Positions 36,974-61,146 of a stretch of DNA of 64,000 nucleotides are shown piece after piece. The stretch comes from Erysipelotrichaceae bacterium (GTDB lineage Bacteria; Bacillota_I; Bacilli_A; Erysipelotrichales; Erysipelotrichaceae): the NCBI GenBank assembly GCA_017473335.1, contig JAFULN010000005.1, forward strand, positions 1 through 64,000. Reading direction: 5' to 3'. The notes under the pieces are model-generated. The model worked only from the letters and a program-made list of their open reading frames with translations. It did not search any database and was not told the origin of the DNA. The stretch's first letter is position 1. Each line of letters begins with the position of its first letter. The translations under genes were made by a program, and so were the position numbers.

Positions 36974-37690
36974 CTATCTTTTTTTGATGATGTTGAGCTG
37001 ATACAATTCTGGATGCATGTACAATTCTGTATAGTCAAAGACAGTGCCATCATGAATGTACGTTGTGTTACAGACACGAAGAATAGGTTGTTTTGGAGAT
37101 AGTTTTAGCTGAGCTGCGATGTATTCGGGTGGGAAAATAGGTGTAATATTTTGATGAGCGTAATCTACAGTAAGGTTATGTTCATCAGCATACTTATATT
37201 TTGAACCTTGTAGAACCTTAATTGAAATTTCAGGATGCAAATCAACAGACATGAATGTCTTTTCAAACAATACGGGCTCATTGTCTGCATAACGAGTTCG
37301 TTCAATGTAGTAAATCAGATCTTTTGGCTTGATTTTTAATAAGCTTGCAACTGTATTTCCAGCTTCTGTTATGTTGAAAGAAACAACCTTGCTGGAAGGC
37401 GTTTTTCCCATTTCTAAGATGTCCTCAGTAAAACTTTTTAAAAGAGGTGTTCTTTGAATGGCGCGTGATTTTTTTACAAAAGAGCCACTTCCCTGGTTTT
37501 TTAATATAAATCCTTTGTAAGCGAGATTCGATAAAGCTTGACGTACAGTAACGCGAGAACATTCATATTGTTTGGAAAGCTCCGCTTCGGTGGGTAAGGC
37601 GTGTTCCTCTTGATAAATACCAGAATTGATTTTATCAATGATGTCATTTTCAATGAGTTGATATTTAGGAACTTTGTTATTTTCGTTCAT
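36974..37690 (-). CDS. GntR/HutC family transcriptional regulator
   Basis: 238 residues: an N-terminal winged helix (YQLIENDIIDKINSGIYQEE, CSRVTVRQALSNLAYKGFIL) and a C-terminal UTRA effector domain (about 75-235). UTRA regulators typically bind a sugar phosphate or amino sugar phosphate. It is divergent from the PTS IIC-IID genes over 163 nt, a region with four TTGTATT(G) half-sites, so it most probably represses the PTS-sulfatase operon until the imported phosphosugar is present. RBS GGAGGTATAATA. Confidence 0.92.
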   Translation of the reverse strand: MNENNKVPKYQLIENDIIDKINSGIYQEEHALPTEAELSKQYECSRVTVRQALSNLAYKGFILKNQGSGSFVKKSRAIQRTPLLKSFTEDILEMGKTPSSKVVSFNITEAGNTVASLLKIKPKDLIYYIERTRYADNEPVLFEKTFMSVDLHPEISIKVLQGSKYKYADEHNLTVDYAHQNITPIFPPEYIAAQLKLSPKQPILRVCNTTYIHDGTVFDYTELYMHPELYQLNIIKKR

Positions 37691-37710
37691 TATTATACCT
37701 CCAATGCGAT

Positions 37711-37819
37711 TTGTATTGTTTTTTTTTGTGAATTTGTATTGTTAAATAAACACATTTTTACATAAGATATAATACAACAAAAAACTTGTATTGACAACTT
37801 TGTTTTTCGATTTTATCAT
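37711..37819 (+). promoter_or_regulatory. PTS-sulfatase operon promoter with GntR operator array
   Basis: Promoter TTGACA (37791-37796), 17 nt, TATCAT (37814-37819). TTGTATT(G) half-sites lie at 37711-37718, 37734-37741 and 37786-37793, and AATACAA at 37771-37777. The last two form the dyad AATACAA-N8-TTGTATT, which overlaps the -35 element, fitting repression by the divergent GntR/HutC protein. The two distal copies are direct repeats 23 nt apart near the gntR start. Confidence 0.75.
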
Positions 37820-37853
37820 GAAATCATAAGATAGATAAGGAGGATATAATCTT

Positions 37854-38666
37854 ATGGCTTTATGGCAAGCATTTTTGATTGGCGTATTGGGCTATTTTGG
37901 TGTAAACCGTACACCTTGGCTCTTTGGTCAGTCAGGTGGTTTCAACGGCATCGCTTCTCCGCTAGTAGCATGTACAATTATGGGAGCTTTGCTGGGAAAT
38001 CTTTCTGAAGGGATTGCAGTTGGTGTTGCGCTTCAGGCAATGTATTTAGGGGTAATTCAGCCAGGTGGCGCTCTTCCATCTGACCGTGGCTTCGCTACAT
38101 TCATTGGTGGATCATTGGCAATCGCTTCTGGTACTGGTGTAGAAGGGGCAATTGCACTGGCAGTTCCACTGGGGCTTCTGGGTGCTGCAATGTTCCAGCT
38201 CTGCATGACTTTTAACTCTTACTTCCCACATCTGGGTGATAAGGCTGCTGCTGAAGGTGATCGCAAGGGAATTGTTCGCGCTCAGCTGTTGGCACAGGTT
38301 CCAACTTTCTTGATTTATGTTACAATTTATACAGTTGCTAACTACTTTGGTGTTGAACTGATTCAGGGAATTATCGCTGCTCTTCCACCACAGATTACAA
38401 CAGCCCTGTCTAAGATGGCTGGTGTTCTTCCTGCAGTTGGTTTCGCTATGCTGCTGAAATACATCATCGCTCCATCTCAGATTTGGATGTTTGGCTTCTT
38501 CGTAATGGGCTTTGTTCTTCTGAAGAACACAAGCTTCAACATCGTGTCTTTGACACTTTTCGCAATTGGTGTTGCAATTATGTTTACTGTAGCACGTTAT
38601 GGCAATGACCTGTTTGGTACAGGACGTTCCGCTGGACAGAATGGAGATGACGCATATGACGAATAA
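37854..38666 (+). CDS. PTS mannose/GalNAc-family IIC component
   Basis: 270-residue membrane channel subunit of a mannose-family PTS permease (EIIC of the AgaC/ManY/SorA type): FGQSGGFNGIASPLVACTIM, GNLSEGIAVGVALQAMYLGV and VIQPGGALPSDRGFATFIGG are typical. It heads the operon behind AAGGAGGATATAATCTT and overlaps the IID gene by 11 nt. No IIA or IIB gene is adjacent. Codon choice (GCT, CTG, GGT) looks more optimised than in the sulfatase genes downstream, suggesting high expression. Confidence 0.92.
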   Translation: MALWQAFLIGVLGYFGVNRTPWLFGQSGGFNGIASPLVACTIMGALLGNLSEGIAVGVALQAMYLGVIQPGGALPSDRGFATFIGGSLAIASGTGVEGAIALAVPLGLLGAAMFQLCMTFNSYFPHLGDKAAAEGDRKGIVRAQLLAQVPTFLIYVTIYTVANYFGVELIQGIIAALPPQITTALSKMAGVLPAVGFAMLLKYIIAPSQIWMFGFFVMGFVLLKNTSFNIVSLTLFAIGVAIMFTVARYGNDLFGTGRSAGQNGDDAYDE

Positions 38667-39462
38667 ACTGACTAAAAAAGATGTTCAGCAGGCTGCATGG
38701 ACAAATGTATTCTTCCATCACTGTGCACAGAACTATGAACGTATGATGGGGCTGGCATTCTGCCATACACTGTCAAAACCTCTGGAAAAACTCTATCCTG
38801 AAAAAGAAGATTATAAAAAGGCTCTTCAGCGCCATATGAACTTCTATAATACTGAACCTACTTTGGGATCTATCATTCCTGGCATCATTCTGGGACTTGA
38901 AGAAGGTAAAGCTAATGGCGATGAAGTCACTGAAGAAATGATCCTTGGTACAAAGACTGCTTTGATGGGTCCTTTCGCAGGTATTGGTGACTCTTTGATT
39001 GGTGCTACTTATCAGTCAATTATCGCTTCTATCGCAATCGCACTGAGCACTGATGGTTCATTGCTGGGTGTTCTGTTCTTCTTGCTGTTCCATGCAGGCG
39101 GAACAATCTTCATGAAATATGCATTATTCATGAAGGGTTATGAACTTGGTTTGAAGGTTCTTGAAATCCTGACTCCAAAAGTAACTGAAATGGCAACTAC
39201 ATTCTTGGGCGTTGTTGGTCTGATCGTTGTTGGTGGTATTACTGCAAATACAGTGAAACTTCCAATCGCATTCCAGTACACTTCAGGTGAACTGGTAATC
39301 AACATTCAGAACATTCTGGATAAGATTATGCCGGGTATGCTGCCTCTGGCTGTTACAATTCTGATTTGGTATCTGTATGCTAAGAAGAACTGGTCAGCAG
39401 TCAAAGTATTGGTTACAATGCTGGTAACAGTTATTGTATTGGTATTCTTAGGGATTATGTAA
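38656..39462 (+). CDS. PTS mannose-family IID component
   Basis: 268-residue membrane subunit (LTKKDVQQAAWTNVFFHHCA, MGPFAGIGDSLIGATYQSII, a segment typical of EIID). It forms the sugar channel with IIC. The open frame extends 19 codons upstream, but the start used follows GGAGATGA and yields the usual MTNKLTKKD N-terminus. The C-terminus ends in two transmembrane helices. A hairpin after the gene may partly terminate transcription before the sulfatase genes. Confidence 0.92.
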   Translation: MTNKLTKKDVQQAAWTNVFFHHCAQNYERMMGLAFCHTLSKPLEKLYPEKEDYKKALQRHMNFYNTEPTLGSIIPGIILGLEEGKANGDEVTEEMILGTKTALMGPFAGIGDSLIGATYQSIIASIAIALSTDGSLLGVLFFLLFHAGGTIFMKYALFMKGYELGLKVLEILTPKVTEMATTFLGVVGLIVVGGITANTVKLPIAFQYTSGELVINIQNILDKIMPGMLPLAVTILIWYLYAKKNWSAVKVLVTMLVTVIVLVFLGIM

Positions 39463-39468
39463 TGAATG

Positions 39469-39503
39469 AGATAGAAGTCAGCTTGCTTGACTTCTATCTT
39501 TCT
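39469..39503 (+). terminator. Terminator or attenuating hairpin after the IID gene
   Basis: GATAGAAGTCA-GCTTGC-TGACTTCTATC followed by TTTCTACTG. The short T tract suggests partial termination, which would let PTS genes be made in excess of the enzymes downstream. A second hairpin, CTACTGA...TCAGTAG, lies at about 39502-39536. Confidence 0.65.
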
Positions 39504-39555
39504 ACTGAATAAGCCAGCTGATGGTTTACTCAGTAGAAAGAAGGAAAGGGGCGTT

Positions 39556-40911
39556 ATGATGAGGGATATTGTACTGATTTTATCAGATCAGCACAGCGGA
39601 TGTGCTGTACAGAGTGAAAACCCTGCTGTTTATACGCCTTTTTTAGCTGAATTGGAATCAAATGCGCAAGTTTTTGAGTCGGCGTACTGCAATTGTCCAT
39701 TGTGTGTACCATCTAGAATGTCTTTTCTTAGCGGTAAAGCACCTCATGAACTTGAAATCTATGATAATGATACAGTGCTTTCTGGTGAAGTGCAGACGAT
39801 TGCTCATCAGATGAGTAGTGCTGGCTACCGTACTGTATTATGTGGAAGAATGCATTTTAAAGGTGAAGATCAGCTTCATGGATTTGAAGAGCGTTATGTT
39901 GGAGACATCACGACCCAATGGTGGGGACAGAAACGTACTGATTTGGGGGCTTTTCAAGGTACAATGCAGATGAAAGGCTGTTTAAATGATTATGGATATG
40001 GAAATTCACCAGTGCAAGAATATGATGAAGCAGTGTTTAAGAAAAGTTTAGAACTTCTTGAAGAAGATTCAGATCGCCCTTTGTTTCTTGTGATTGGATT
40101 TTATGGTCCTCACTTTCCATATTGTTCAAAAAAAGACACGTTTGATCGTGCTTATGAAAAAGTTTTGGATGTCAGTGATGCTTCATTGAATTGTGATGGA
40201 ATTTATTCTGACATGATTCAACATTTAGATGATGAAGGTCTGCGTCATATTCGCAGCGCTTATTATGGCTTGATTGAACAGTTAGATGGAATGCTGAAAG
40301 AAATTCATACATCTGTTCGCAAACATCATCAGGATGCACTTCTAATTTATACATCAGATCATGGAGATCAAATAGGTAAGCGTAAATTGTATGGCAAAAA
40401 AACATTATATGAAGAATCGATTCGAATTCCGCTTTTGATTGAAGATTTGAATAAAAAGCCTACACGCTATACACATGAAGTCTCTTTGCTGAATCTGCAT
40501 GCCACTGTTCTGGATGAAGCTAAAATAAACTCAATAGAGCAAACAGTTTATGAGATGAATAATCCGGTTTTAATTACTTCTTTGATTGAAAAAGATGGAA
40601 AAGAGCAGCTTGTTCAAAGTGTGATTCATCAAGGAATGAAACTAGTAAAAACAGATCAATTTCATCTATATTCATTAAAAAATGATCCAAATGAATTAAA
40701 AGATGTGATAGACGAATATCCACTGCTTGCCAAGCAGCTTGCTAGCCGTTTAGTGGATGATCAAACGATTTTAAGTCATCGACCAGAGTTAAAACAACAA
40801 ACTCAGAAAATGAAGGAATGGACAAAAATCAATCAGCCTGAAGACTGGATTCGATATCAGATTTCTCAGTCTGCCCAACAAAAACCAAGGAGGAACGGAA
40901 ATGAAGTATAA
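39556..40911 (+). CDS. Cytoplasmic Cys-type sulfatase
   Basis: 451-residue sulfatase (alkaline phosphatase superfamily). The maturation site is Cys50 in CVPSRMSFLSG, the Cys-type CxPSR motif converted to formylglycine; metal ligands include SDQHSG near the N-terminus and IYTSDHGDQIGKRKLYGKKT. There is no signal peptide: the protein starts MMRDIVLILSDQH, so it should act inside the cell on a sugar already imported. The cognate anaerobic maturase is encoded 6 kb downstream. RBS GAAAGGGG. The next gene overlaps its 3' end. The sulfated substrate is unknown. Confidence 0.92.
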   Translation: MMRDIVLILSDQHSGCAVQSENPAVYTPFLAELESNAQVFESAYCNCPLCVPSRMSFLSGKAPHELEIYDNDTVLSGEVQTIAHQMSSAGYRTVLCGRMHFKGEDQLHGFEERYVGDITTQWWGQKRTDLGAFQGTMQMKGCLNDYGYGNSPVQEYDEAVFKKSLELLEEDSDRPLFLVIGFYGPHFPYCSKKDTFDRAYEKVLDVSDASLNCDGIYSDMIQHLDDEGLRHIRSAYYGLIEQLDGMLKEIHTSVRKHHQDALLIYTSDHGDQIGKRKLYGKKTLYEESIRIPLLIEDLNKKPTRYTHEVSLLNLHATVLDEAKINSIEQTVYEMNNPVLITSLIEKDGKEQLVQSVIHQGMKLVKTDQFHLYSLKNDPNELKDVIDEYPLLAKQLASRLVDDQTILSHRPELKQQTQKMKEWTKINQPEDWIRYQISQSAQQKPRRNGNEV

Positions 40912-42439
40912 AGTATTATGGACCGACATGCACAGCAACCTGCATCACGAAAGAATTGAAGATCTGCCAAAATGGCTGAATCAAATTCGTCAGACAATGG
41001 ATTTCTGGCCTTTTGCCTATTACCCATACTATATGAGAAAAGATGAATCAGGTTTAGGCGTTGAAGACCGTTATCCTTTGGAAGCTATTGAAAAAGACTG
41101 GGAATATATTCGTTCAGTGACGCAAAAAGCCAATGATGAAGGCTTCCCTATGTTCATGGGTTATGAATGGCAGGGAGCTGGTAAAGATGGTGATCACAAT
41201 GTGTTCTTAAAAGATAACCAACAGAAAATGGAATATCCTTTGCGCTATGAAGAACTTGTTCAAGCGTACGAAGGCAAGGATGCCATTGGGATTCCTCACC
41301 ATTTGGCTTATCAGTTGGAACATCGTGGAAAAAACTGGCAAACTCACAACGATCAGTTTTCTCCTTTTGTTGAAATTTACTCATCACATGGATCAAGTGA
41401 AAATGACACAACTTGTATTGAAATGAATCGTCATGTTCATATGGGACCGCGCACTGGCATGACTTGTGTTGAACGAGGCTGGGAAATGGGCCATAAGTAT
41501 GGTGTTATCGCAGCAGGTGACAATCATAGCTGTCCGGGTGTCTATGGGTTTGGCTATACAGCAGTTTTAGCAGAGGATGCAACAAAAGAAGCAATTTGGG
41601 ATGCTTTTGTGAATCGTCGCGTCTATGGCGTTTCAAAAGATCGCATTGAGCTGGATTATACAGTAGATTCTTCTGTGATGGGATCAGAAATAGAGGCAAA
41701 AACCGATTCGAAATTGGATTTGAAGATCAAAGCTGCAAATGCGATTGACCGCATCGAAATCATCAAAGACAATCGTGTGATTGAAATGATTCCTCATACA
41801 TCAACATGGGAAAATCAAGAACTCACAGGGACAGTCCGTTTTAAATTCCAGTTAGAGCTGGGATGGGGACCAGACCGTAGAATCTTCCCTGATATTGAAA
41901 GCAGAAATTGGACAGGCTCATTAAAGACTCCTGGTAAACTACTTTCAATCGAAAAGTGCTGGAGTACATTTGGTCAGAATTTAACAAATGTAACAGAACA
42001 GTCATGTGATTTTGAAATGACAACATACAAAACCACTGCAACTGGAAAATGGATGGGGCCAAGCGCAATCACTACTGAAGGATTCATCTTTGAAATCGAG
42101 GATGATATTGACTCGCATGTTGTTTTGACAATTGATGGTAAAGAATATGTCATCTCAGTTCGTGATTTGATGTATTCAAGTCGTTTGTTCCCGCTTTTGG
42201 ATGAAGTGTCAGACTTATTAAAAGAACGTTTCAATTTTACTGAATTCTATCGTTCAGATTCATGGTGGCACAATTGTTATAAAATTAAAGTGCATCAGGC
42301 TGTCCCTGAAGCTGCTTATACGCGTCATATTGAAAGAATCATCGATACAACAGATTGCCATTCACTTCGAGTGCGTGTATGGCAGAAAAATGGTGGTGTT
42401 GCATGGTCAAGTCCAATTTTTGTAAAGAAGGAGCAATGA
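40901..42439 (+). CDS. Putative PHP-like metal-dependent hydrolase
   Basis: 512 residues. The N-terminal part has metal-ligand-like His/Asp clusters, WTDMHSNLHHERIEDL, GIPHHLAYQLEH, EIYSSHGSSE and GVIAAGDNHSCPGVYG, in the order seen in PHP/DUF3604-type proteins. The C-terminal 250 residues are beta-rich and unrecognised. No signal peptide. It overlaps the first sulfatase by 11 nt (RBS AGGAGGAACGGAA) and lies 1 nt before the second, so it is a core part of the sulfated-sugar operon. Catalysis is inferred; the substrate is unknown. Confidence 0.65.
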   Translation: MKYKVLWTDMHSNLHHERIEDLPKWLNQIRQTMDFWPFAYYPYYMRKDESGLGVEDRYPLEAIEKDWEYIRSVTQKANDEGFPMFMGYEWQGAGKDGDHNVFLKDNQQKMEYPLRYEELVQAYEGKDAIGIPHHLAYQLEHRGKNWQTHNDQFSPFVEIYSSHGSSENDTTCIEMNRHVHMGPRTGMTCVERGWEMGHKYGVIAAGDNHSCPGVYGFGYTAVLAEDATKEAIWDAFVNRRVYGVSKDRIELDYTVDSSVMGSEIEAKTDSKLDLKIKAANAIDRIEIIKDNRVIEMIPHTSTWENQELTGTVRFKFQLELGWGPDRRIFPDIESRNWTGSLKTPGKLLSIEKCWSTFGQNLTNVTEQSCDFEMTTYKTTATGKWMGPSAITTEGFIFEIEDDIDSHVVLTIDGKEYVISVRDLMYSSRLFPLLDEVSDLLKERFNFTEFYRSDSWWHNCYKIKVHQAVPEAAYTRHIERIIDTTDCHSLRVRVWQKNGGVAWSSPIFVKKEQ

Positions 42440-42440
42440 T

Positions 42441-43808
42441 ATGAATCTTGTTTATATCAATACACATGATACAGGGCGTATGATTAGTCCTTATGGTGTT
42501 ATGGTTCCTACTCCTCATCTGCAGAATTTGGCAGAAGATGGAACATTGTTTACCCAGGCTTTCTGCTGTGGGCCAACTTGTTCACCAAGCAGAGCAGCTA
42601 TGTTGACAGGGACGTATCCACATCAAAATGGAATGTACGGTCTAGCTCAAAGAGGCTTCTCATTACATCATCCAGATCAGCATCTGGCATCTTGGCTAAA
42701 ACAGCAGGGATATCAGACTGCCATCAGTGGCATTCAGCACGAAGTAGGATGGTACTTGGATCTGGATGAACAGGGACTGCATGATTTGGGATATGAAAAT
42801 ATCTTAACAACTTCATCTAAAGAATATGCAAAAGAGGATCTGCATGTGTGGGATCGTGCAAATGTACTAGAAGCAGTAAAATGGCTGGATCGTCGAGATC
42901 CAAACAAACCATTTATGTTAAGCTATGGCATGCATTCAACCCATCGCCCATATCCAATTCAAGTAGCAGACAACATTGATGAACGTTATGTAAAACCTGT
43001 TTTTGGTGGTGTTGGAGATCCTGCAGTACGCCATGATCAGGCTCAGTATATGACAACAGCTCAGTACGCAGATGAAAATGCACACATTTTGATTGAAGCA
43101 CTAAAAGAAAGAAATCTTCTGGATTCAACAGTGATTATGTATACAACAGACCATGGTCTGGCAAATCCATTTCACAAATGTACCTTATCGGATCGTGGAA
43201 TTGGGGTATCTTTGATTGTGCGTCATCCTGAAATGGGACATGGCGAAGTGTGTGATCATCTTGTTTCTCATTTGGATGTTTTCCCTACACTTTGTGATCT
43301 GCTCAATGTGAAAAAACCTGAATATTTAGAAGGTGTGTCTTTTGCAAAGACATTCAAAAATGCAGAACATGTGCATCGTGAAGAAGTATATGCAGAAGTG
43401 AACTTCCACACTTCCTATGAACCAATGCGATGTGTACGTACTTCAAGATATAAATATGTACATTATTTTGATGAATCATGGACATTCATGAATCTGTCCA
43501 ATATAGATGAATCAGCACCAAAAGATCAGCTAATGAAACATGGATTAAGAGATCGACATAAACCAATGGAAGCTCTTTATGATCTTATGTATGATCCTGA
43601 TGAAACATGCAACTTGATTGAAAATGAAGCTTTAAGTTCAATCAGAGAAGAATTAAAAAAGAAACTCTTTAATCATATGGAAAAGACAAATGATCCTCTA
43701 TTGAAAGGTCATTTTGAAATTCTTCCACATTACAAAGTCAACAACAAAGACTGTTTAATGGCTTCAAGTAAGAATCCAAATGATTATGATCCAAGAGGTA
43801 GAAAATAA
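42441..43808 (+). CDS. Cytoplasmic Cys-type sulfatase, second
   Basis: 455 residues. The maturation site is Cys47 in CCGPTCSPSRAAMLTGTYPH. Other sulfatase elements: YINTHDTGRMISPYG (metal ligand region), MYTTDHGLANPFHKCTL. It lacks a signal peptide, like the first sulfatase, but the two differ widely, suggesting different sulfate positions or substrates. The C-terminal subdomain (PMEALYDLMYDPDETCNLIE) is typical. Start and stop overlap or abut both neighbours. Confidence 0.92.
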   Translation: MNLVYINTHDTGRMISPYGVMVPTPHLQNLAEDGTLFTQAFCCGPTCSPSRAAMLTGTYPHQNGMYGLAQRGFSLHHPDQHLASWLKQQGYQTAISGIQHEVGWYLDLDEQGLHDLGYENILTTSSKEYAKEDLHVWDRANVLEAVKWLDRRDPNKPFMLSYGMHSTHRPYPIQVADNIDERYVKPVFGGVGDPAVRHDQAQYMTTAQYADENAHILIEALKERNLLDSTVIMYTTDHGLANPFHKCTLSDRGIGVSLIVRHPEMGHGEVCDHLVSHLDVFPTLCDLLNVKKPEYLEGVSFAKTFKNAEHVHREEVYAEVNFHTSYEPMRCVRTSRYKYVHYFDESWTFMNLSNIDESAPKDQLMKHGLRDRHKPMEALYDLMYDPDETCNLIENEALSSIREELKKKLFNHMEKTNDPLLKGHFEILPHYKVNNKDCLMASSKNPNDYDPRGRK

Positions 43809-45214
43809 TGTTAATTCAATATTCAGACTATGTGAAAAACATTTTGAATCAAGTGATTCAAAATCAGATTCCAAAACTTCCTTCGATTGCAGACGTTATC
43901 CTTGATCGTGTCGCAAAGGGAGGTAAGTTCAGAATTTTTGCTTCTGGACACAGTCACATCATTACAGAAGAAATGATGAAACAGACTGGAGGATTTCAAT
44001 TTCCTCAGCCATACAATCCAGAAGATTTATTCGGTCATCCATTGAAGTCTGGATATATTGAAAGAAATGCTGAATTTGGCGAAGTGTTTTACCGTGCCAT
44101 GGGACTAGAAAAAGGGGATGTGCTTTGGTTGATTTCCAATTCTGGTACCAATGGAGTGGTGGTTGAACTAGCGAAACTATCACAGGAAAATGATATTTAT
44201 TTGGTTGCACAAACCAATATGAATCAAACTCTGAAAGTAACAGCGCGTCATCCATCGAAAAAGAAGATGTATGAGTATGCAAATGCAGTGATTGACAACT
44301 GTGGAAATGACGGAGATGCGGCATTTGAAACAGTAGGTCAAAAGCGTCAAGGACCAACATCCAACATTATAGGAACTTTTATCTTTCAGGCATTGAATGT
44401 CTGTTTTGCAGCGATTTTAGAATCAAGTGGATGCAGAGAAGAAGACCTCCATAATGGAAACTACCTTGAGAAAAAACAAATTAATATTCAACAGATTCAG
44501 TATCATTTGGATGCCTATATTAAGCGGTACTTTGATGTATTTGATGAAGTTGTCAAAAAAGAACTAACGAATATTGAACAGGCAGCTTCTTGTTCTGTTC
44601 AATCTATTCTTGAAAACAAACGTAATTTTATGTTTGGGATGGCACATGATCACAGTTTAGTGGAAGAGATTCATGCTCGTGCAGGAACAATCATGTGCAA
44701 CAAATCCATGGTAATGCAGAACACTGAAATTCAGTTTTATGAAAGTGTAGAAAAGGCACACATGTACGCATCTATCGCAAAATATGGTGAAGCTGTTCTC
44801 TATAGTGTAGAACCACAAGAGAATGACACATTCTTTTTAGTGAGTCAATCTGCTAGTGAATTGGCTTTAGTCCGAATGATTCAAGTGCTAAAAGAAAAGG
44901 GATGTAAAGTCATTTTGCATACCAATAAAAAAGCTGCACAGGCTTTAAATTCTACTGTATTAAATGATGTTGATGTTTTGATGGACAATCACGGCCCTTC
45001 TACTCAATTGATGTTGAATGTGGGAGATTATGCTGTAGGTTATCCAGCAACATCTATTGGTTGTTTTATTAATCAGTGCTACATTATTTCCATGACCAAA
45101 CAGCTGTATGAACATGGAATTGATATGCCAACTCGTATCAGCATCAATACAGATAAAGGGTTTGCTTACACTGAAAATTTAAACCGCAAGTATTTTAATG
45201 ATACACTTATATAG
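43808..45214 (+). CDS. Tandem SIS-domain sugar isomerase-like protein
   Basis: 468 residues made of two SIS halves. The first (about 1-245) matches sugar-phosphate SIS proteins: FRIFASGHSHIITEEMMKQT and DVLWLISNSGTNGVVVELAK. The second (about 260-460) has FMFGMAHDHSLVEEIHARAG and TFFLVSQSASELALVRMIQV, diverged from the first. SIS domains bind phosphosugars in isomerases, deaminases and AgaS-type enzymes. Family members are usually about 245 residues, so this is a duplication or fusion. A role in processing the imported phosphosugar is inferred from the operon. Confidence 0.82.
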   Translation: MLIQYSDYVKNILNQVIQNQIPKLPSIADVILDRVAKGGKFRIFASGHSHIITEEMMKQTGGFQFPQPYNPEDLFGHPLKSGYIERNAEFGEVFYRAMGLEKGDVLWLISNSGTNGVVVELAKLSQENDIYLVAQTNMNQTLKVTARHPSKKKMYEYANAVIDNCGNDGDAAFETVGQKRQGPTSNIIGTFIFQALNVCFAAILESSGCREEDLHNGNYLEKKQINIQQIQYHLDAYIKRYFDVFDEVVKKELTNIEQAASCSVQSILENKRNFMFGMAHDHSLVEEIHARAGTIMCNKSMVMQNTEIQFYESVEKAHMYASIAKYGEAVLYSVEPQENDTFFLVSQSASELALVRMIQVLKEKGCKVILHTNKKAAQALNSTVLNDVDVLMDNHGPSTQLMLNVGDYAVGYPATSIGCFINQCYIISMTKQLYEHGIDMPTRISINTDKGFAYTENLNRKYFNDTLI

Positions 45215-45239
45215 ATAGATGACTTCTATCTATTTTTTC
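45211..45239 (+). terminator. Terminator after the tandem SIS gene
   Basis: ATAGATAG-ATGACT-TCTATCTAT followed by TTTTTCTATC, starting at the stop codon. The next gene follows within 45 nt, so readthrough or a separate promoter is expected. Confidence 0.75.
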
Positions 45240-45256
45240 TATCAAGGAGGATCAAT

Positions 45257-46243
45257 ATGAAATTGGGGATATGTGGAACAGGGCAAATCAGTGAACAACT
45301 GATGCGCAATGCAGCAAAAATCAAAGATATACAAGTTGTTTCAGTGATGCATAGAGAAATGGAAAAGGCAAAAAGATTTGCGCATGAAACAAACATACCC
45401 TTTGCGTTTGATTCAATGAAAGATTTTTTAAACAGTGATATCGACACTGTTTATGTTGGCCTTCCCAATTCTCTTCATTTTGAGGTGGCAGAAGCGTGCA
45501 TTCGTGCTAACAAACATGTTTTGGTTGAGAAACCTTTTACTTCCAATCTCAATGAGCTTAATCAATTGATTCGACTTGCGAATCAGCACAAAGTGCTGCT
45601 GTTGGAAGTCAATCGTGTTGTTTATCTTCCCAATATAAAATGGATAAAACAAAACCTGTCTTTTTTAGGCCCTTTAAAGCAAGCAGAGTTTTCCTACTGT
45701 AAACGCTCTAGAAAATACAATGATTATGAAAATGGACTTCGACCTAATGTGTTTACTCCCGAATATTCTGGTGGTGCGCTTATGGATTTAGGTGTTTATG
45801 GGCTTCATTTGGCTTGTGAGCTGTTTGGAATGCCTAAAACCTTGACTTATCGCTGCGAAAAGTTAGAAACCGGTGTGGATGCAGAGGGGATTTTAACATT
45901 GGATTATGGAGAGTGGAGAGTACTCATTCATCAAAGTAAAGTGACAAATGGAGATGTGAATGTTAAAATTCAAGGAGAACAGGCAGTGATGGCGTTTGAC
46001 TATGCTCCATCCATTTTAAAACAAGGAAAACTGATGATTGAATCAGAAATAAAAGAATCTGACGTTCATGAAGAGGAGAACTTTTATTATTTCTTAAAGA
46101 AAGCCTGTGAAATCATTGATACAAATGATAGACAAGAAGTACAGCGCCTGATGCAAAAATCCATTCAGATTATGACTCTTTTGGATGAGGCGAGAGCTCA
46201 GTGCGGAATTGTCTTTTCTCAAGATATGGAGGTCCATTCATGA
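45257..46243 (+). CDS. Gfo/Idh/MocA family oxidoreductase
   Basis: 328-residue NAD(P)-dependent sugar oxidoreductase: Rossmann domain with LGICGTGQISEQLMRNA, then VYVGLPNSLHFEVAEACI and the EKP motif in KHVLVEKPFTSN, followed by the beta-sheet substrate domain (GGALMDLGVYGLHLACELFG). Members oxidise or epimerise sugars and inositols. RBS AAGGAGGATCAAT. Its stop overlaps the maturase start. Substrate unknown; the position suggests work on the desulfated sugar. Confidence 0.9.
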   Translation: MKLGICGTGQISEQLMRNAAKIKDIQVVSVMHREMEKAKRFAHETNIPFAFDSMKDFLNSDIDTVYVGLPNSLHFEVAEACIRANKHVLVEKPFTSNLNELNQLIRLANQHKVLLLEVNRVVYLPNIKWIKQNLSFLGPLKQAEFSYCKRSRKYNDYENGLRPNVFTPEYSGGALMDLGVYGLHLACELFGMPKTLTYRCEKLETGVDAEGILTLDYGEWRVLIHQSKVTNGDVNVKIQGEQAVMAFDYAPSILKQGKLMIESEIKESDVHEEENFYYFLKKACEIIDTNDRQEVQRLMQKSIQIMTLLDEARAQCGIVFSQDMEVHS

Positions 46244-47340
46244 AGTATTTTTCCATGTTGATCAAACCTGCAAGTTCACTCTGTAACATGAAATGCAGTT
46301 ATTGTTTCTATGCAGATGTATCTGATCATCGTGAAGTGAAGACACACGGTATTATGGATCAAAAGACAATGCGAGAACTCATTGAAAAGACATTGTATGC
46401 TTTTGATGAAGAAGTGATGATCACTTATGCCTTTCAGGGTGGTGAGCCAACTTTGGCAGGACTTGAGTTCTTTGAACAGTTTGTTGAATGTGTGAATTCA
46501 ATGAAAAAAGAAATTCATCATGTTTCTTATTCACTCCAGACTAATGGGCTTCTTTTGGATGATGCATGGATTGCCTTTCTAAAGAAGTATGAGTTTTTAG
46601 TCGGTGTCTCTTTGGATGGGATGATTGAGCATCATGATGATCTTAGAAAAGATGCGCAGAACAAGCCTACCTATGAACGCATTATGAAAAATATACGTAA
46701 GTTAAAAGAGGAAGAGGTTCAGTTTAATGTGTTGACAGTACTGACACATTCGCTTTCCAAAAAGGCGAAACAGTTGTATGCCTTTTATAAAAAAAATCAA
46801 CTGAATTATGTACAGTTGATACCATGTCTTCCTTCACTTGATTTCAAAGATAATCCTTTTGCATTAAAACCACATGATTTTGCACATTTTTATGATGAGT
46901 TTTTTTCTCTTTGGTACAAAGACTGGAAAAAGAATGAAGTTATGAGTGTCACTCTTTTTGATAATCTGATTCCGATGTTTGCAGGAATTCCTCCGCAGCA
47001 GTGCGGATATCTTGGCTTTTGTAGCATGCAGTTTGTGACAGAAAGCGATGGATCTGTATATCCATGTGACTTTTATGTGTTGGATGAGCATTGTCTTGGA
47101 AACATCAAAACACATTCCATCAAAGAACTCGCAACATCAGTAGTTTTAAAATCATTTCTTTCTGAAAAGCGAAATCGAACAAGGGCATGTTTATCCTGCC
47201 GCTATGAAGGAATCTGTCATGGACAATGTAAGCGTATGAGTGTTTGCTATTATGATGAGACATATTGCGGATTAAAAGAATTCATGACAAAACATGAAAA
47301 GGCGATGTTGGAAGTTGCATCTTCCATTCAAAGGAGATAG
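46240..47340 (+). CDS. Anaerobic sulfatase-maturating enzyme (radical SAM)
   Basis: 366-residue radical SAM enzyme that oxidises the sulfatase Cys to formylglycine without oxygen. The SAM cluster is Cys15-X3-Cys19-X2-Cys22 (SLCNMKCSYCFYADV). The C-terminal SPASM-type Cys set for two more clusters includes CGYLGFC, GSVYPCDFYVLDEHCLGNI and RACLSCRYEGICHGQCKR. Length is typical. The start overlaps the preceding stop and follows GGAGGTCC; a 13-codon upstream extension is unlikely. Both Cys-type sulfatases of this operon are its expected clients. Confidence 0.94.
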   Translation: MKYFSMLIKPASSLCNMKCSYCFYADVSDHREVKTHGIMDQKTMRELIEKTLYAFDEEVMITYAFQGGEPTLAGLEFFEQFVECVNSMKKEIHHVSYSLQTNGLLLDDAWIAFLKKYEFLVGVSLDGMIEHHDDLRKDAQNKPTYERIMKNIRKLKEEEVQFNVLTVLTHSLSKKAKQLYAFYKKNQLNYVQLIPCLPSLDFKDNPFALKPHDFAHFYDEFFSLWYKDWKKNEVMSVTLFDNLIPMFAGIPPQQCGYLGFCSMQFVTESDGSVYPCDFYVLDEHCLGNIKTHSIKELATSVVLKSFLSEKRNRTRACLSCRYEGICHGQCKRMSVCYYDETYCGLKEFMTKHEKAMLEVASSIQRR

Positions 47341-47341
47341 T

Positions 47342-48115
47342 ATGATTGTATTTTATATTTTGGTTGTTTTAGCGGCAACTGTGCTAGGAGCCTCAGTTGG
47401 ACTTGGTGGTGGAGTTATCATCAAACCATTTTTTGATTTGATTGGACTTCATGATACAGCGACAATTGGAGTGTATTCCTCTATGGCAGTATTTACTATG
47501 TCGGTTGTCTCTATCTATAAACAATTTAAAAACAAAGCGAAGTTTGAGCTTTCAATTGTGCTTCCACTTGCGTTTGGGTCTATTTTTGGAGGTGTGAGTG
47601 GAGATGTGCTGTTTGGTTATGTACATCAAATGTTAAATGAAATGACCAAAGTGGTTCAAAATGGAATGCTAGCCATTGTATTAACTGTCATTTTGATTTA
47701 TACCCTGAAAAAGAATCGGGTGAAGACGCTAAAGCTGACTTCACCTGTGGTAGTTTTGTTGATTGGATTTCTATTAGGCAATATCTCTGTCTTTTTAGGG
47801 ATTGGCGGTGGCCCTTTAAATCTGGCAGTGCTTTCTTTCTTTTTCTCATTTACATCCAAAGAAAGTGTGGTGTTGTCAATCACCATCATCTTCTTTTCTC
47901 AATTGTCGAAACTGGGATCGGTATTCCTTAAAAATCAGTTTCTAATTTATGATTTAAGTCCAGTTCCGTTCATTTTGATTACTGCAATTGCGGGAGGAAT
48001 GATTGGCAGTACACTCAATAAAAAACTGAATAATCTTCAAATTGATATGTTGTATATTGGAACACTGATTTTGTTGATTGGATTATCACTATTCAATATT
48101 GTTCGTGCAATATAA
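47342..48115 (+). CDS. TauE/SafE family sulfite/sulfate-type anion exporter
   Basis: 257-residue membrane protein with about eight helices. The duplicated family motif appears as GASVGLGGGVIIKPF near the N-terminus and GNISVFLGIGGGPLNLAVLS in the second half. RBS AAAGGAGATAGT, 1 nt after the maturase stop. TauE/SafE proteins export sulfite, sulfoacetate or related anions. At the end of an operon with two cytoplasmic sulfatases, the likely job is to expel the sulfate released inside the cell. That specificity is inference. Confidence 0.87.
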   Translation: MIVFYILVVLAATVLGASVGLGGGVIIKPFFDLIGLHDTATIGVYSSMAVFTMSVVSIYKQFKNKAKFELSIVLPLAFGSIFGGVSGDVLFGYVHQMLNEMTKVVQNGMLAIVLTVILIYTLKKNRVKTLKLTSPVVVLLIGFLLGNISVFLGIGGGPLNLAVLSFFFSFTSKESVVLSITIIFFSQLSKLGSVFLKNQFLIYDLSPVPFILITAIAGGMIGSTLNKKLNNLQIDMLYIGTLILLIGLSLFNIVRAI

Positions 48116-48178: not shown

Positions 48179-48543
48179 ATGGTGGTTACTGATATGGAGC
48201 ATAAGGGACTTAGCGAGAAAACAATCAGAAACATTTTCAGAATGTAGAATTGTATGTGGAATTCTTGAATTTTCATCATGATGCTGAAATTGAGCATGGC
48301 GTTGAATATACATACTTAGCTGATTTTTTTGGCTACTATTTTATTCGCAAATGCATGTGGTCAACTCCTGCTACTTTGAAATCAACAGCAGCAAGTATTA
48401 AGAAATTCTATAAGTGTATGGCTGAACATCAAGTGATTGATGAAGAAAGCTATAAAGAACTTCTATCCATCATGAAAGACTTTGATCCTGAGTGGATGGA
48501 AGAATGTGATGACTATAATAAAGGAAATGCATATTATTTCTAA
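48179..48543 (+). pseudogene. Frameshifted, 5'-truncated gene remnant
   Basis: Two overlapping frames join into one sensible protein if one A is added in the run at about 48227-48231: MVVTDMEHKGLSEKTIR continues as KHFQNVELYVEFLNF and onward through YLADFFGYYFIRKCMWSTPA to a tail rich in acidic and aromatic residues. The joined product is about 120 residues and helical. Its 5' side is occupied by the partial palindromic repeat, so the N-terminus is probably lost. I recall similar conserved hypothetical proteins of bacteria and archaea but cannot name a function. A separately translated 96-residue product is the alternative. Confidence 0.6.
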
Positions 48544-48566
48544 AGGGCGATGCCCTTTTTTCAATT
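48543..48566 (+). terminator. Terminator after the gene remnant
   Basis: AAGGGC-GAT-GCCCTT followed by TTTTCAATTTTT. Confidence 0.8.
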
Positions 48567-48651: not shown

Positions 48652-49509
48652 ATGAGAAAAAGACTAATATTTAGAATTGACGATGTAGGATATACTCCAG
48701 CTTATGACATGGGTGCTTTCCGTGTGTTTGATGCAGGTGTAGGATCATCTGCAGATGTGATGTTTGATTCACCAGATACAGTGGAAGCTTTGAAGAAACT
48801 GAAAGATATGCCTTGGCTGTCTGTTGGATGGCATCGTCATCTGTGGGAATCTCCTGTTCTGCCTCCTGAAGAAGTGCCTTCATTAGTAAATGAACATGGA
48901 CGCTTTAAATGGGGACATCGTCGTCAGGACTTGATGAAAGAAGCAACGTATGAAGATGCCTATAAGGAATTTGATGCAGAAATGAAGCTTTGCTACAGTA
49001 TTCTTGGACGTTATCCAGATGTAGCTGGTGTAAGAAACAGTGACCTTCCTTTGGAAAAAGCATTTAAAGACGTGGTTGAAAAGTATGGTATCGCTTATAA
49101 TATTTTCTCCAGTGCTCCAGACCACAGAAGCCAGCAGAAAGCTGATCCTAAATATGCACATTTAAATATTATTTCTTCTGCAGCGGCTATTAAGGCAAGC
49201 TACAAGTTTGAAGACTATAAAGATTACGATGCACTTGGCAGAATGGTTTCATTGAAGTGGGAAGGCGAAGAAATCTATCTGTATGGATGGCATCCAGGCT
49301 ACTGTGATGATCATATCCTTAAAGAATCTACATGCAACATTCATCGCTGCGCAGAACTTCAGGCAGCATTGAGTGATGAATTCAAAAACTGGGTGATTGA
49401 AAATCAGATTGAATTGATCAATGTTCGTGATGCGTTACATGGAACAAATGAATTCCAGGATCATTTGAAAGAAATCAACAGCCCACTGTGGGTAGGGAAT
49501 TTTAAATAA
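48652..49509 (+). CDS. ChbG/YdjC-type polysaccharide deacetylase-like protein
   Basis: 285 residues. Metal-site features of the YdjC/ChbG fold: FRIDDVGYTPAYDMGAF (paired Asp), SVGWHRHLWESPVL (His pair) and YGWHPGYCDDHIL near the C-terminus. ChbG removes acetyl from chito-oligosaccharide (or its phosphate); the substrate here is unknown. A TATAAT lies at 48619-48624 and GAGG precedes the start; an in-frame extension of 14 codons upstream would overlap the promoter. Probably a separate unit from the sulfatase operon. Confidence 0.8.
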   Translation: MRKRLIFRIDDVGYTPAYDMGAFRVFDAGVGSSADVMFDSPDTVEALKKLKDMPWLSVGWHRHLWESPVLPPEEVPSLVNEHGRFKWGHRRQDLMKEATYEDAYKEFDAEMKLCYSILGRYPDVAGVRNSDLPLEKAFKDVVEKYGIAYNIFSSAPDHRSQQKADPKYAHLNIISSAAAIKASYKFEDYKDYDALGRMVSLKWEGEEIYLYGWHPGYCDDHILKESTCNIHRCAELQAALSDEFKNWVIENQIELINVRDALHGTNEFQDHLKEINSPLWVGNFK

Positions 49510-49514
49510 AACGC

Positions 49515-49540
49515 AGAGCACTCTAACCGAGTGCTCATTT
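49515..49540 (+). terminator. Terminator-like hairpin after the ChbG-like gene
   Basis: GAGCACTC-TAACC-GAGTGCTC followed by ATTTATG. The T tract is weak, so partial readthrough into the ceramidase-like gene is likely. Confidence 0.65.
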
Positions 49541-49558
49541 ATGATGGAGGATGATGAA

Positions 49559-50737
49559 ATGAAAATTGGAACACGACAATTTTGTATCAATCCAGAATTT
49601 CCAGTCAATCGAATGTTGAAGCCAGTAAAACATCAGGATGTTTCAGATCCTTTGCATTGTCGTATTGTGATATTTGTTCCAGAGAATGATGTTCCGATTG
49701 TCCATGTGTCGATTGATACTGTTGAATTGTGGAAATATCGAGAGAATCAAATCACAGAAGTGATTGAAAGAGTACTCGGACAGAAAGTACATTGCATCTG
49801 TTCAGCAACACATTCACATAATTGTCCATGTATGACAACAGATGATGATTATGTTGATTTTGTACTAACTCGTTTAAAACATGAAGTACCTTTGATAGAG
49901 CTCAAGGATTATAAAAAAGTAGAATATAACTATCAGTATAATTATTTTGATAAGGTTGGAAAAAGCCGCGTCATGGATCACACAACACCTCACGTGTACG
50001 CAGAGACTTGTTCGATTTATGGGGATGGAAAACGCATTGTGACATTTTTGATTCACAATGTTCATCCAACCATCAAAGAACTTTGGAAAGGTGACTTTAC
50101 TGCAGAATATCCTGGATATTGTATATCTGCACTGAGAAAAGAATATCCTGATGAATTTTTCACGTTCCTTTTAGGGCCTTCTGGGGACATAAGTCCACAT
50201 TTTGTCAGACGTGGAAGAGATTATGAAGAAATGCTTCGCTTGTCAGAATTATTAAAACAGGAGTTTGCTCGACAGCTGAAACTTCAAAAGAAAGAAAAGA
50301 ATCAGTCACTTCACATGGAATATGAAGAAACAGTGATTCCAAATTTGCTGGAACCATTTGATTTGAATCAAATTGATCTTCCAGAAGTCTTAAATGAAGA
50401 TGAAAAGAAGTTCTTAGAACGATTAGGAAAACCTAGTCCATTTCATCGTGAAATCAGAGATTTTGAGAAATGTGCAGAACATACACTCGCTCACTTGATT
50501 TTTTCAAAAGAGTATTCAATGATTTTTGAACCCTTTGAACTTTATAGTGAATACTATGGTGCAGTTGATAAAAGAAGATGTTCTGTGATTTCTATTTCAA
50601 AGGGATTTGATCACTATTTAACAGGGCTCCATTTGAACCGTTTGACAATGCATGGTACTGCCAGTGGGTTTTCACACAAGACTAAAAAAAGAATGTGGGA
50701 AATCTTAAGCAGATGGAGCTGTCAGGAAAAAGTATAA
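49559..50737 (+). CDS. Neutral ceramidase-like protein of unknown substrate
   Basis: 392 residues. Segments CICSATHSHNCPCMTTDD and LGPSGDISPHFVRRG match the zinc-binding and nucleophile regions of the neutral/alkaline ceramidase N-terminal domain (THTHSGP and NxGDVSPN types). It has no signal peptide and is much shorter than true ceramidases (about 650-700 residues), so it is more likely an amidase or deacylase acting in the cytoplasm. Such short relatives often lie in carbohydrate loci. The start follows GGAGGATGATGA; 6 extra codons upstream contain that RBS. Confidence 0.7.
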   Translation: MKIGTRQFCINPEFPVNRMLKPVKHQDVSDPLHCRIVIFVPENDVPIVHVSIDTVELWKYRENQITEVIERVLGQKVHCICSATHSHNCPCMTTDDDYVDFVLTRLKHEVPLIELKDYKKVEYNYQYNYFDKVGKSRVMDHTTPHVYAETCSIYGDGKRIVTFLIHNVHPTIKELWKGDFTAEYPGYCISALRKEYPDEFFTFLLGPSGDISPHFVRRGRDYEEMLRLSELLKQEFARQLKLQKKEKNQSLHMEYEETVIPNLLEPFDLNQIDLPEVLNEDEKKFLERLGKPSPFHREIRDFEKCAEHTLAHLIFSKEYSMIFEPFELYSEYYGAVDKRRCSVISISKGFDHYLTGLHLNRLTMHGTASGFSHKTKKRMWEILSRWSCQEKV

Positions 50738-50765
50738 TGAAAAGGTCCGAACTGGACCTTTAACT
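50738..50765. terminator. Bidirectional terminator
   Basis: AAAGGTCC-GAACT-GGACCTTT between the convergent ceramidase-like and activase genes. Confidence 0.8.
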
Positions 50766-51656
50766 ACATTTTACATTGAATCCTTCGGACTCATAGTATT
50801 CTATGAGATGCTGAAGGTCTTTTTTTGTAAGCTGGACATTATTCGGATAAGCATATTCTTTTTGAAGGAATTGATATTTGTTTTCTCCAAATTGATGAAA
50901 TGGTAAAAGTTCTATATCTTTGATGTCAAGTTTATGAAAAATCTGTGCTGTATGTTTGGCATCTTCTAAAGAGTCGTTATAGTTGGGGATGATTGGCATG
51001 CGTATGATTATCTTTTTTTCATGTTCTTTTGCTAATGCTAAATTTTCAAGAATGAGCTGATTGGATACACCTGTACCTTTTTTGTGTTTTTCTGAATTAG
51101 GATGTTTAAAATCAAACAATAAAAGATCAATATGATTTAAGAGTTTGCAGAAGGTCTCTTTTGATGAATATCCGGTTGTTTCAATAGCTACATGAATATT
51201 GTGTTCATGCAGCTTGTCTGCAAGTTCAATAGCAGCCTGTACCTGGCTGAGGACTTCGCCGCCAGAGAAAGTGACCCCTCCATTTGATTCTTTATAAAAG
51301 TCAGCATCTTTCAAGATTTCATTTAGGATTTCTTCGATATCCATTGTATATCCTTCGATTTGTATCGCATTAAAAGGACATGCATTTGCACAAAGTAGAC
51401 AGTGTTTGCATTTTTGATGATCTATGACGATTTTGTCATGAATCAAAGACAGGGCCTTGTTTGGACAAACGCTGACACATAATCCACATTGATGGCAGTT
51501 TTTATCATGATAGGTAATCTGTGGGAAAGAGAGCTGAGATTCAGGATTTGCACACCATGCGCAGCGCAGTGGACAACCTTTAAAGAATACAGTGGTTCTG
51601 ATTCCAGGACCATCATGAAGACAGAATTTTTGAATGTTAAAAAGAATTGGTTTCAT
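50760..51656 (-). CDS. Glycyl radical enzyme activating enzyme (radical SAM)
   Basis: 298-residue activase. The SAM cluster is Cys28-X3-Cys32-X2-Cys35 (GCPLRCAWCANPES). An inserted ferredoxin-like domain with two CX2CX2CX3C sets (CHQCGLCVSVCP, CKHCLLCANACP) is typical of activases of dehydratase/lyase-type glycyl radical enzymes rather than of PflA itself. It installs the glycyl radical at Gly775 of the enzyme encoded divergently. RBS GTGAGGAACTCTT. The expected promoter and a TTTCAAATGAAA dyad lie just upstream. Confidence 0.94.
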   Translation of the reverse strand: MKPILFNIQKFCLHDGPGIRTTVFFKGCPLRCAWCANPESQLSFPQITYHDKNCHQCGLCVSVCPNKALSLIHDKIVIDHQKCKHCLLCANACPFNAIQIEGYTMDIEEILNEILKDADFYKESNGGVTFSGGEVLSQVQAAIELADKLHEHNIHVAIETTGYSSKETFCKLLNHIDLLLFDFKHPNSEKHKKGTGVSNQLILENLALAKEHEKKIIIRMPIIPNYNDSLEDAKHTAQIFHKLDIKDIELLPFHQFGENKYQFLQKEYAYPNNVQLTKKDLQHLIEYYESEGFNVKCS

Positions 51657-51678
51657 AAGAGTTCCTCACTGTACGTTT

Positions 51679-51793
51679 ATTATAAAACTGTTTCAAATGA
51701 AAATCAAACCACATAAATTAATATCAAACAAAATTAAATAAAGTTTCGTTCGTAAATAATTGCATTGACAATGAGGCGCTGGAAAGCTATACT
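51679..51793. promoter_or_regulatory. Divergent promoters of activase and glycyl radical enzyme with DeoR-type sites
   Basis: Minus strand: TTGATT (51702-51707), 17 nt, TATAAT (51679-51684), with dyad TTTCAAATGAAA (51691-51702) in the spacer. Plus strand: TTGACA (51765-51770), 17 nt, TATACT (51788-51793). TTTCGTTCG near 51744 and GAAAGCGAAA near 51795 resemble DeoR-family half-sites on both sides of the plus-strand promoter. Assignment to the nearby DeoR protein is inference. Confidence 0.7.
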
Positions 51794-51816
51794 GAAAGCG
51801 AAATAGGAGGAAGTTT

Positions 51817-54216: not shown

Positions 54217-54227
54217 AGGAGAAGAGT

Positions 54228-60414: not shown

Positions 60415-60440
60415 ACCTCAAAAGAGGTCTTTTTCTTTAC
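60412..60440 (+). terminator. Terminator after the ChbG-like gene
   Basis: AGACCTC-AAAA-GAGGTCT followed by TTTTCTTT. Confidence 0.9.
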
Positions 60441-60502
60441 AATTCACACAAAAAACACACAATTTTTTCAAAAAACAGCGCATTAAAACTACATTCTTTG
60501 AG

Positions 60503-60516
60503 TGAAAGCGTTTGCA
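60503..60516 (+). promoter_or_regulatory. cre site (CcpA-type catabolite control)
   Basis: TGAAAGCGTTTGCA differs at one position from the cre consensus TGWAANCGNTNWCA. It lies about 90 nt before the IIB gene of the PTS operon, consistent with carbon catabolite repression. Confidence 0.7.
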
Positions 60517-60543
60517 AATACAAGGTAAAATAAAAACAGTAAG

Positions 60544-60588: not shown

Positions 60589-60605
60589 AATGAAAAGGAG
60601 AACTT

Positions 60606-61094: not shown

Positions 61095-61146
61095 TTAAGG
61101 CTTTAAGTATTACTACTTAACATAATAGAAAGGGGATATAATACTT

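Follow-up and report, generated by a model that had tools for sequence, protein, structure and literature searches.

The window analysed here comprises the first 64,000 nucleotides of contig JAFULN010000005.1 from an Erysipelotrichaceae bacterium of the gut (assembly GCA_017473335.1). At positions 36974–48115 it carries a locus made of one divergent GntR/UTRA regulator gene and nine co-directed genes, which follow each other with overlaps or short gaps in the order phosphotransferase system (PTS) IIC, IID, sulfatase-1, PHP protein, sulfatase-2, tandem SIS protein, Gfo/Idh oxidoreductase, anaerobic sulfatase-maturating enzyme (anSME) and TauE. We consider it likely that this locus forms a regulated operon for the breakdown of a sulfated amino sugar, which would be taken up with its sulfate in place. 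An initial annotation, made from the sequence alone, had placed these genes in one regulated region, and profile searches of the window proteins located all of them at the claimed positions, with the GntR/UTRA gene just upstream:

36974–37690, minus strand: divergent GntR/UTRA repressor (Pfam UTRA 115.2 bits, GntR 56)
37854–38666, plus strand: PTS IIC, mannose/sorbose family (EII-Sor 189.6 bits; 79% to the IIC of the G286 locus)
38656–39462, plus strand: PTS IID, mannose family (EIID-AGA 286.1 bits)
39559–40911, plus strand: sulfatase-1, Cys type with CVPSR, choline-sulfatase-like (Pfam Sulfatase 136.0 bits; best Protein Data Bank (PDB) match 6fny, 219 bits)
40901–42439, plus strand: metallohydrolase of PHP fold carrying a beta domain at its C-terminus, used as marker of the system (DUF3604 32.5 bits; alignment; AlphaFold2 and Foldseek)
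42441–43808, plus strand: sulfatase-2, Cys type with CSPSR, S1_8/SGSH-like (Pfam Sulfatase 147.4; PDB 9bb9 187.7 bits, 4mhx 137.5)
43808–45214, plus strand: tandem SIS_2 protein, NagS/UPF0309 relative (SIS_2 152.3 bits; PRK02947 272.2 bits, above cut-off)
45257–46243, plus strand: Gfo/Idh/MocA oxidoreductase (94.6 bits)
46240–47340, plus strand: anSME, radical SAM/SPASM (TIGR03942 333.3 bits; PRK13758 334.0)
47342–48115, plus strand: TauE/SafE-type exporter (Pfam TauE, PF01925, 92.3 bits against a cut-off of 32.6, and thus a member of the family)

Most known bacterial glycan sulfatases work outside the cytoplasm. The two sulfatases of this locus had been described as Cys-type enzymes lacking a signal peptide, which we could confirm, as the first core strand starts at most three residues from the Met in the alignments of both. 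Among the sulfatase-2 orthologues, 28 of 37 have ten residues or fewer before the core strand, assuming the most upstream possible start; such N-termini are too short, which excludes a signal peptide for most of the family as judged from the alignments. The CxPSR motif is invariant in both sulfatase alignments (A2 and A3) and was found in 37/37 sulfatase-2 and 14/17 sulfatase-1 cluster members. Both domains of the maturase are present, and its scores lie just below the curated cut-offs (441 for PRK13758 and 349.45 for TIGR03942), with the anSME models beating every other family by more than 130 bits. This is the single anSME of the genome, in which the sulfatase superfamily consists of the two Cys-type enzymes and two longer proteins of another kind, which from their length we take to be lipoteichoic-acid-synthase-like. 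Contig C64, which holds an IIC-IID-sulfatase-1 stretch, was considered as a second copy of the locus and rejected, because its genes and flanks are identical and it is a redundant assembly of the operon start and upstream flank; it inflates the sulfatase count of this metagenome-assembled genome (MAG).

By similarity to PDB sequences, sulfatase-2 is closest to the S1_8 family: its match to 9bb9 scored 187.7 bits where the next family reached 166.0, and the core region alone gave 95.9 against 67.2 bits. Foldseek searches with its structural model returned SGSH sulfamidase at all of ranks 1–8. Similarity to 9bb9 (S1_8A) had been taken as proof of a sulfamidase, an argument that was dropped, as 9bb9 is a lambda-carrageenan sulfatase.

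The PHP protein, encoded between the two sulfatase genes, gave no significant match in a sequence search against the PDB, while its AlphaFold2 model (pLDDT 77.8) had the PHP-fold structures 3e38 and 2anu as top Foldseek matches. Alignment of its relatives (A1) showed invariant His, Asp and Glu residues, which are candidate metal ligands. Against the CehA/McbA model NF038032 it scored 46.2 bits, below the 80-bit cut-off, a weak similarity that does not make it a member. Eleven genomes of the same order encode relatives with 42–76% identity, mostly beside genes for sulfatase-2, IIC, IID and GntR, some of the contigs ending early.

A scan of GTDB genomes with the PHP marker returned 54 related loci, which from the organism names we assign to Bacillota, Actinomycetota, Fusobacteriota and Synergistota. 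As the PHP gene is present in all of them by construction, the informative part is how the other genes vary around it, counted per locus by tblastn and, for sulfatases, within 9 kb of the PHP gene. An S1 sulfatase of any kind lies near PHP in 41/54 loci, sulfatase-2 in 39 and sulfatase-1, which is optional, in 19. Mannose-type IIC and IID were each found in 31 loci, glucose-type EIIBC in six, sucrose-type EIIBC in four (two apparently flanking genes), giving about eight loci with a PTS of the glucose/sucrose family, and a tripartite carboxylate transporter (TctA/TctC) in nine. NanE-like genes are present in seven loci and NagB in three, namely two sulfatase-bearing Halolactibacillus loci and L135, which has no sulfatase. 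Of the 41 sulfatase-bearing loci, 11 have TauE and 11 have anSME, and neither gene is present in the remaining 13; several of these 13 are contig ends, and the Hungatella TctABC-PHP loci L115 and L116 are long enough to be real.

Among the carriers of the GntR/PTS/PHP/sulfatase-2 core are Holdemania, Dielma, Hungatella, Lachnospiraceae, Enterococcus and Clostridium, some of the carriers having a different regulator or another type of PTS. The genes of the Halolactibacillus operon, with short gaps between them, follow the order GH4-PHP-EIIBC-NagB-sulfatase-2-EIIA-TauE-FGE-anSME; its NagB exceeds the TIGR00502 cut-off, and the EIIA label is our own reading of the sequence. This operon (L130:15522-17734; L132) holds FGE-type and anSME-type maturases together, as if the sulfatase were matured both with and without oxygen. 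Conservation of the whole gene set, which the initial annotation had proposed as a check by neighbourhood search, held widely for the core but not for the SIS and Gfo/Idh genes: the tandem SIS recurs only in L135 and Gfo/Idh has no homologue in the other loci of the set, which on these searches makes both local additions outside the conserved set. Without them, the locus is conserved to a degree far above chance, and the claimed linkage of a cytoplasmic sulfatase to PTS and TauE recurs in unrelated genomes. We found no description of a PHP-sulfatase pairing in the open-access literature.

It is highly probable, in our judgement, that a sulfated sugar is imported and then desulfated inside the cell. 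The substrate of the sulfatases could instead be a sulfate ester that is not a sugar, for example choline sulfate, with the PTS unrelated, given that sulfatase-1 is nearest to choline sulfatases (219 bits to 6fny, and 211.1 bits with the choline sulfatase model TIGR03417, the latter under the curated cut-off of 433.45, which leaves it outside that family). We regard this explanation as very improbable, since PTS and sulfatase stay linked across classes with three sugar-PTS types, their partners include NagB, GH4 and NanE, and the regulator is of the UTRA type.

The PHP gene is the only one kept alongside every transporter type and its product should therefore perform a needed step. We propose, as a leading guess that is still tentative, that it is an amidohydrolase responsible for N-deacylation. 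In loci L115, L116, L112 and L144 (Hungatella, Clostridium sp. chh4-2 and a Clostridiales MAG) it stands beside TctABC with no sulfatase in the available flank, and it may act without a sulfatase in loci of this type.

Import by a PTS as the phosphate, as initially proposed, agrees with the IIC and IID genes and with the PTS linkage across loci, but about 9 of the 54 relatives use TctABC and no IIA or IIB is encoded between 36974 and 55687, so that the locus alone cannot phosphorylate and both subunits must come from elsewhere. Related loci often hold a IIB internally. Candidates of the matching subfamily are encoded on contigs C40 (IIB) and C49 (IIA), and among the five IIB genes of the genome the one at C40:7094-7645 is closest to most locus-type IIBs (36–49%). 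Its best match is the sulfatase-locus IIB in three carrier genomes (G251, G219 and G286), and in operon L095 such a IIB accompanies a IIC and a IID identical to those of the window at 79% and 77% of positions, respectively. The C40 IIB has no directly adjoining IIC or IID; a separate IIC-IID pair lies 4.5 kb off on the contig, which also carries four consecutive single-SIS_2 genes of the NagS/PRK02947 type (L173:8837-11880) with IIC-IID after them. A second mannose-family PTS, encoding a YdjC-like protein, IIB, IIC, IID, a metallo-beta-lactamase-fold protein and IIA, spans positions 59617-62768 of the window and C80:64052-64375.

Further genes of contig C40 code for a heparinase II/III-like protein and, above cut-off, for a dehydrogenase of the KduD type; on the orthologous contig of genome G238, IIB and GH88 are grouped with IIA, SIS genes and an RpiB-like gene. 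Judging from this synteny, the GH88, heparinase II/III-like and KduD-type short-chain dehydrogenase genes would form one cluster with IIA and the orphan IIB. The earlier statement that no lyase or glycosidase is present thus holds for the locus, but the genome has heparinase II/III-like and GH88 genes elsewhere, and the Halolactibacillus version includes GH4. In Holdemania (G216 and G217), GH88, RpiR, IIA and IIB are clustered without IIC-IID, while at the sulfatase locus IIC and IID are present and IIA and IIB are missing. The two sets complement each other, which suggests that this PTS serves the uptake of glycosaminoglycan fragments, with the caveat that Holdemania has more than 20 IIB genes.

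The PTS might accordingly import sulfated unsaturated glycosaminoglycan disaccharides, to be cleaved inside by the GH88 encoded elsewhere, leaving the operon to handle a sulfated hexosamine phosphate. The cluster suggested by the G238 synteny, the Holdemania split of GH88-RpiR-IIA-IIB from IIC-IID-PHP-sulfatase-2 and the known streptococcal PTS import of such disaccharides (PMC9067506) are in line with this proposal, which we nevertheless hold to be improbable, as contig C40 already encodes a IIC-IID pair (27% to the IIC of the window), GH88 is not part of the sulfatase loci, and no GH88 was detected in the locus carriers G251, G286, G137 and G183.

Sulfate released by cytoplasmic sulfatases would build up inside the cell, and export is thus the natural reading of TauE. 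The initial annotation had assigned it this role, and the data fit: no ATP-sulfurylase of the Sat type (PF01747) turned up in any of 16 carrier genomes (a search that did not cover CysDN), as expected if sulfate is waste. The chance of ten TauE matches in 54 loci is roughly 1e-8, or about 2e-5 when counted by some 22 genera (an estimated number), so that the linkage would lie far above chance on this rough estimate. TauE probably exports sulfate, a role that has also been proposed for a pneumococcal island. Members of TauE/SafE carry several anions in characterised cases. It is rather unlikely that TauE has another role here, such as sulfate import or export of another anion, with its linkage reflecting sulfur handling in general; beyond this range of substrates, such a role would suit the presence of TauE proteins in 16/17 genomes tested, with many in Enterococcus, but not the confinement of the linkage to sulfatase-bearing loci (11/41 against 0/13) or the lack of a Sat-type ATP-sulfurylase to use imported sulfate.

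The tandem SIS protein resembles NagS (SCO4393; 9eol, E 2e-12). Of the NagS-essential residues H53, R64, E94 and D179, the His, Glu and Asp are kept and Arg64 is replaced by Gln59, and we therefore do not class the protein as NagS. Its relation to NagS, the NagB of the Halolactibacillus operon (nagB being the sole diagnostic catabolic gene found in operons) and the proximity of sulfatase-2 to S1_8/SGSH make a glucosamine (GlcN) core the likelier one for the substrate; an N-sulfate specifically is possible but somewhat less likely than not. Mannose-family PTSs normally phosphorylate aldohexoses at C6, which favours N-, 3- or 4-sulfated sugars over 6-O-sulfated ones. From the initial proposal, a sulfated amino sugar thus stands, with a glycosaminoglycan source favoured, but 6-sulfo-GlcNAc and 6-sulfo-GalNAc fit poorly. 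The likeliest substrate would be N-sulfo- or O-sulfo-glucosamine from heparan sulfate, heparin or another glycosaminoglycan, either free or bound in a small glycoside. Conversion of N-sulfoglucosamine (GlcNS) to GlcN is described for an S1_8 enzyme from P. heparinus (PMC10154612), and NagS dehydrates GlcNAc-6P (PMC12680351).

In the pathway that we propose, the phosphorylated sugar would release the GntR/UTRA repressor, and IIC-IID, with IIB and IIA from another locus, would import the sugar as its 6-phosphate; the protein families are clear and the partner is our inference. The cytoplasmic anSME would turn the CxPSR Cys of both sulfatases into formylglycine, an activity predicted from families and motif. 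Sulfatase-2 would then take off an N- or O-sulfate and sulfatase-1, where present, a second sulfate, and the PHP protein would catalyse a hydrolysis needed by every version of the pathway, for which N-deacylation would fit. The product, probably GlcN-6-P, would pass through NagB to glycolysis, and the released sulfate would leave via TauE.

In its widespread form, this could be a pathway in which import phosphorylates GlcNS or a related sugar and a cytoplasmic sulfamidase, working on the sugar phosphate, then removes the N-sulfate, with the PHP protein as a new sugar hydrolase and with interchangeable transporters (mannose PTS, glucose/sucrose PTS and TctABC), a generalisation that we put forward with reserve. 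Several observations weigh against the pathway proposed for the present locus. NagB is operonic in only two sulfatase-bearing loci, both from Halolactibacillus, and in the sulfatase-less L135. The NanE-like genes of seven loci hint at a mannosamine-type step, which a plain GlcNS route does not need, and the TctABC variants, which need no phosphorylation, are left unexplained by it, as is the PHP protein, which would have no evident role with GlcNS itself as the substrate. The locus lacks IIA and IIB, whose partnership with copies from other loci is suggested by subfamily similarity (41–49%). The fold match of sulfatase-2 comes from a structural model of modest quality (pLDDT 67.8), and family membership does not settle the substrate, because S1_8 also holds lambda-carrageenan sulfatases, which are O-sulfatases.

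Alternatively, an O-sulfated N-acetylhexosamine (3- or 4-sulfo-GlcNAc, or the 4-sulfo-GalNAc of chondroitin) might enter as the 6-phosphate, with the PHP protein as an N-deacetylase replacing NagA/AgaA and the SIS protein acting on the amino sugar phosphate. In favour of this, the loci showed no NagA or AgaA, the carbamate-cleaving CehA/McbA enzymes are distant relatives of the PHP protein, NagB occurs in three loci, NanE works on N-acyl sugars, and S1_8 enzymes are not exclusively sulfamidases. The best fold match of sulfatase-2 is nevertheless a sulfamidase, no AgaS or tagatose-type genes were seen, and we know of no precedent for sugar deacetylase activity in a PHP protein. We consider this scenario unlikely, and favour entry of a sulfated amino sugar with a GlcN core.

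Control of the operon is suggested by a divergent GntR/UTRA orthologue at most PTS-type related loci and by the following elements, listed with the features that follow TauE:

37709–37800, no strand assigned: putative operator boxes WTTTGTATTGW/ATACAA, at 37709, 37732 and 37784, overlapping the -35 element
37791–37819, plus strand: promoter-like TTGACA-17-TATCAT preceding IIC (11/12 consensus; a consensus match only)
39468–39500, plus strand: intercistronic hairpin in the IID/sulfatase-1 gap (-17.5 kcal/mol, z -3.9)
48250–48543, plus strand: 97-aa open reading frame of uncertain membership, before the terminator-like hairpin (no Pfam or NCBIfam match)
48542–48558, plus strand: terminator-like hairpin with T run
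48655–50737, plus strand: YdjC-like deacetylase homologue and ceramidase-like protein (YdjC 83.8 bits), possible associates only

TTGTATT/AATACAA boxes similar to those of the window also precede related loci, and the best genome-wide match to the operator pattern is confined to this promoter and its assembly duplicate. As the box count across the whole window is at chance level, only the clustering at the promoter and the presence upstream of related loci carry weight. In a whole-genome regulon search with this pattern, other matches were no commoner than in a reversed control and did not pinpoint IIA/IIB. A second, weaker intercistronic hairpin (45210-45233) precedes Gfo/Idh; both hairpins are AT-rich and have the string GACTTCTATCT in common. 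They may tune expression inside the operon, possibly as processing or partial-termination sites.

A homologue of the ceramidase-like protein adjoins sulfatase-2 in locus L092 (24% identity). Such proteins recur near clusters of the amino-sugar or glycosaminoglycan type (L092:260-1507, L176:11065-12216, L172:1676-2839 and window 48655-50737), that of L172 scoring 27.2 bits with Ceramidase_alk, under the cut-off, and are possibly sugar N-deacylases. Elsewhere, the window holds a glycyl radical enzyme at 51817-54216 (region 50760-54908) with a divergent activase and a fructose-6-phosphate-aldolase-like gene, far under the specific curated cut-offs (HYPD 585.6/1100, HpsG 550.5/1000 and CutC 538.5/1050), and an FMN riboswitch at 3345-3463 (Rfam RF00050, 96.3 bits).

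Import in Bifidobacterium breve UCC2003 is not known to involve a PTS. Its glycosulfatase clusters resemble the present locus in using intracellular sulfatases, with growth on a sulfated monosaccharide (GlcNAc-6-S) obtained by cross-feeding, but the sulfate is 6-O-linked and the description names neither a PHP protein nor TauE (Egan et al. 2016, cited in PMC7326374). A likeness in gene content is offered by the pneumococcal island SPH1922-1930. Bidossi et al. 2012 (PMC3302838) described PTS, sulfatase, maturase (SUMF) and TauE there in one operon and proposed that sulfated sugars are taken up and desulfated and that TauE exports the sulfate. It also encodes a NanE-like epimerase, as do seven PHP loci, and no detectable sulfatase activity is reported for it (PMC3283741). 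The island differs in its lactose/cellobiose-family PTS and MarR/ROK regulator, against mannose-type PTS and GntR/UTRA here; no PHP protein is mentioned for it and its substrate was never found. The heparin polysaccharide utilisation loci of Pedobacter heparinus and Bacteroides (S1_8, S1_9 and S1_11) share an S1_8 enzyme that in P. heparinus acts on GlcNS after other steps, but are periplasmic, with no PTS phosphorylation, TauE or PHP described (PMC10154612). Glycosaminoglycan disaccharide PTS clusters of streptococci and other Firmicutes likewise use a mannose-family PTS for host glycan fragments and phosphorylate the amino sugar on entry; they are based on lyase and GH88, act mainly on hyaluronan and do not have a sulfatase at their core (PMC9067506). 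Streptomyces NagS (SCO4393; PMC12680351) has the SIS_2 fold and shares most ligand residues with the N-terminal half of the tandem SIS protein, which differs in its tandem architecture and in Gln59 for the essential Arg64.

The import-desulfate-export logic was thus already proposed for pneumococcus in 2012, and B. breve is reported to desulfate inside the cell. The PHP/S1_8 gene set, its spread, the transporter swaps and the glycosaminoglycan-linked IIA/IIB are undescribed in the literature that we found; what is new is a broad PHP/S1_8 family of loci. The locus is real, conserved and interpretable, with one uncharacterised core enzyme, the PHP protein.

Gut bacteria outside the Bacteroidota are seldom credited with the use of sulfated host glycans, because little is understood of how their sulfatases and importers work. 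This type of locus offers a defined gene set, a PHP marker and type strains that can be cultivated (Holdemania filiformis, Dielma fastidiosa and Halolactibacillus halophilus), and bears on which sulfated sugars such bacteria import, on whether sulfatases act on sugar phosphates and on the origin of sulfate for gut sulfate reducers. It could also hint at the substrate of the pneumococcal island, a question open since 2012.

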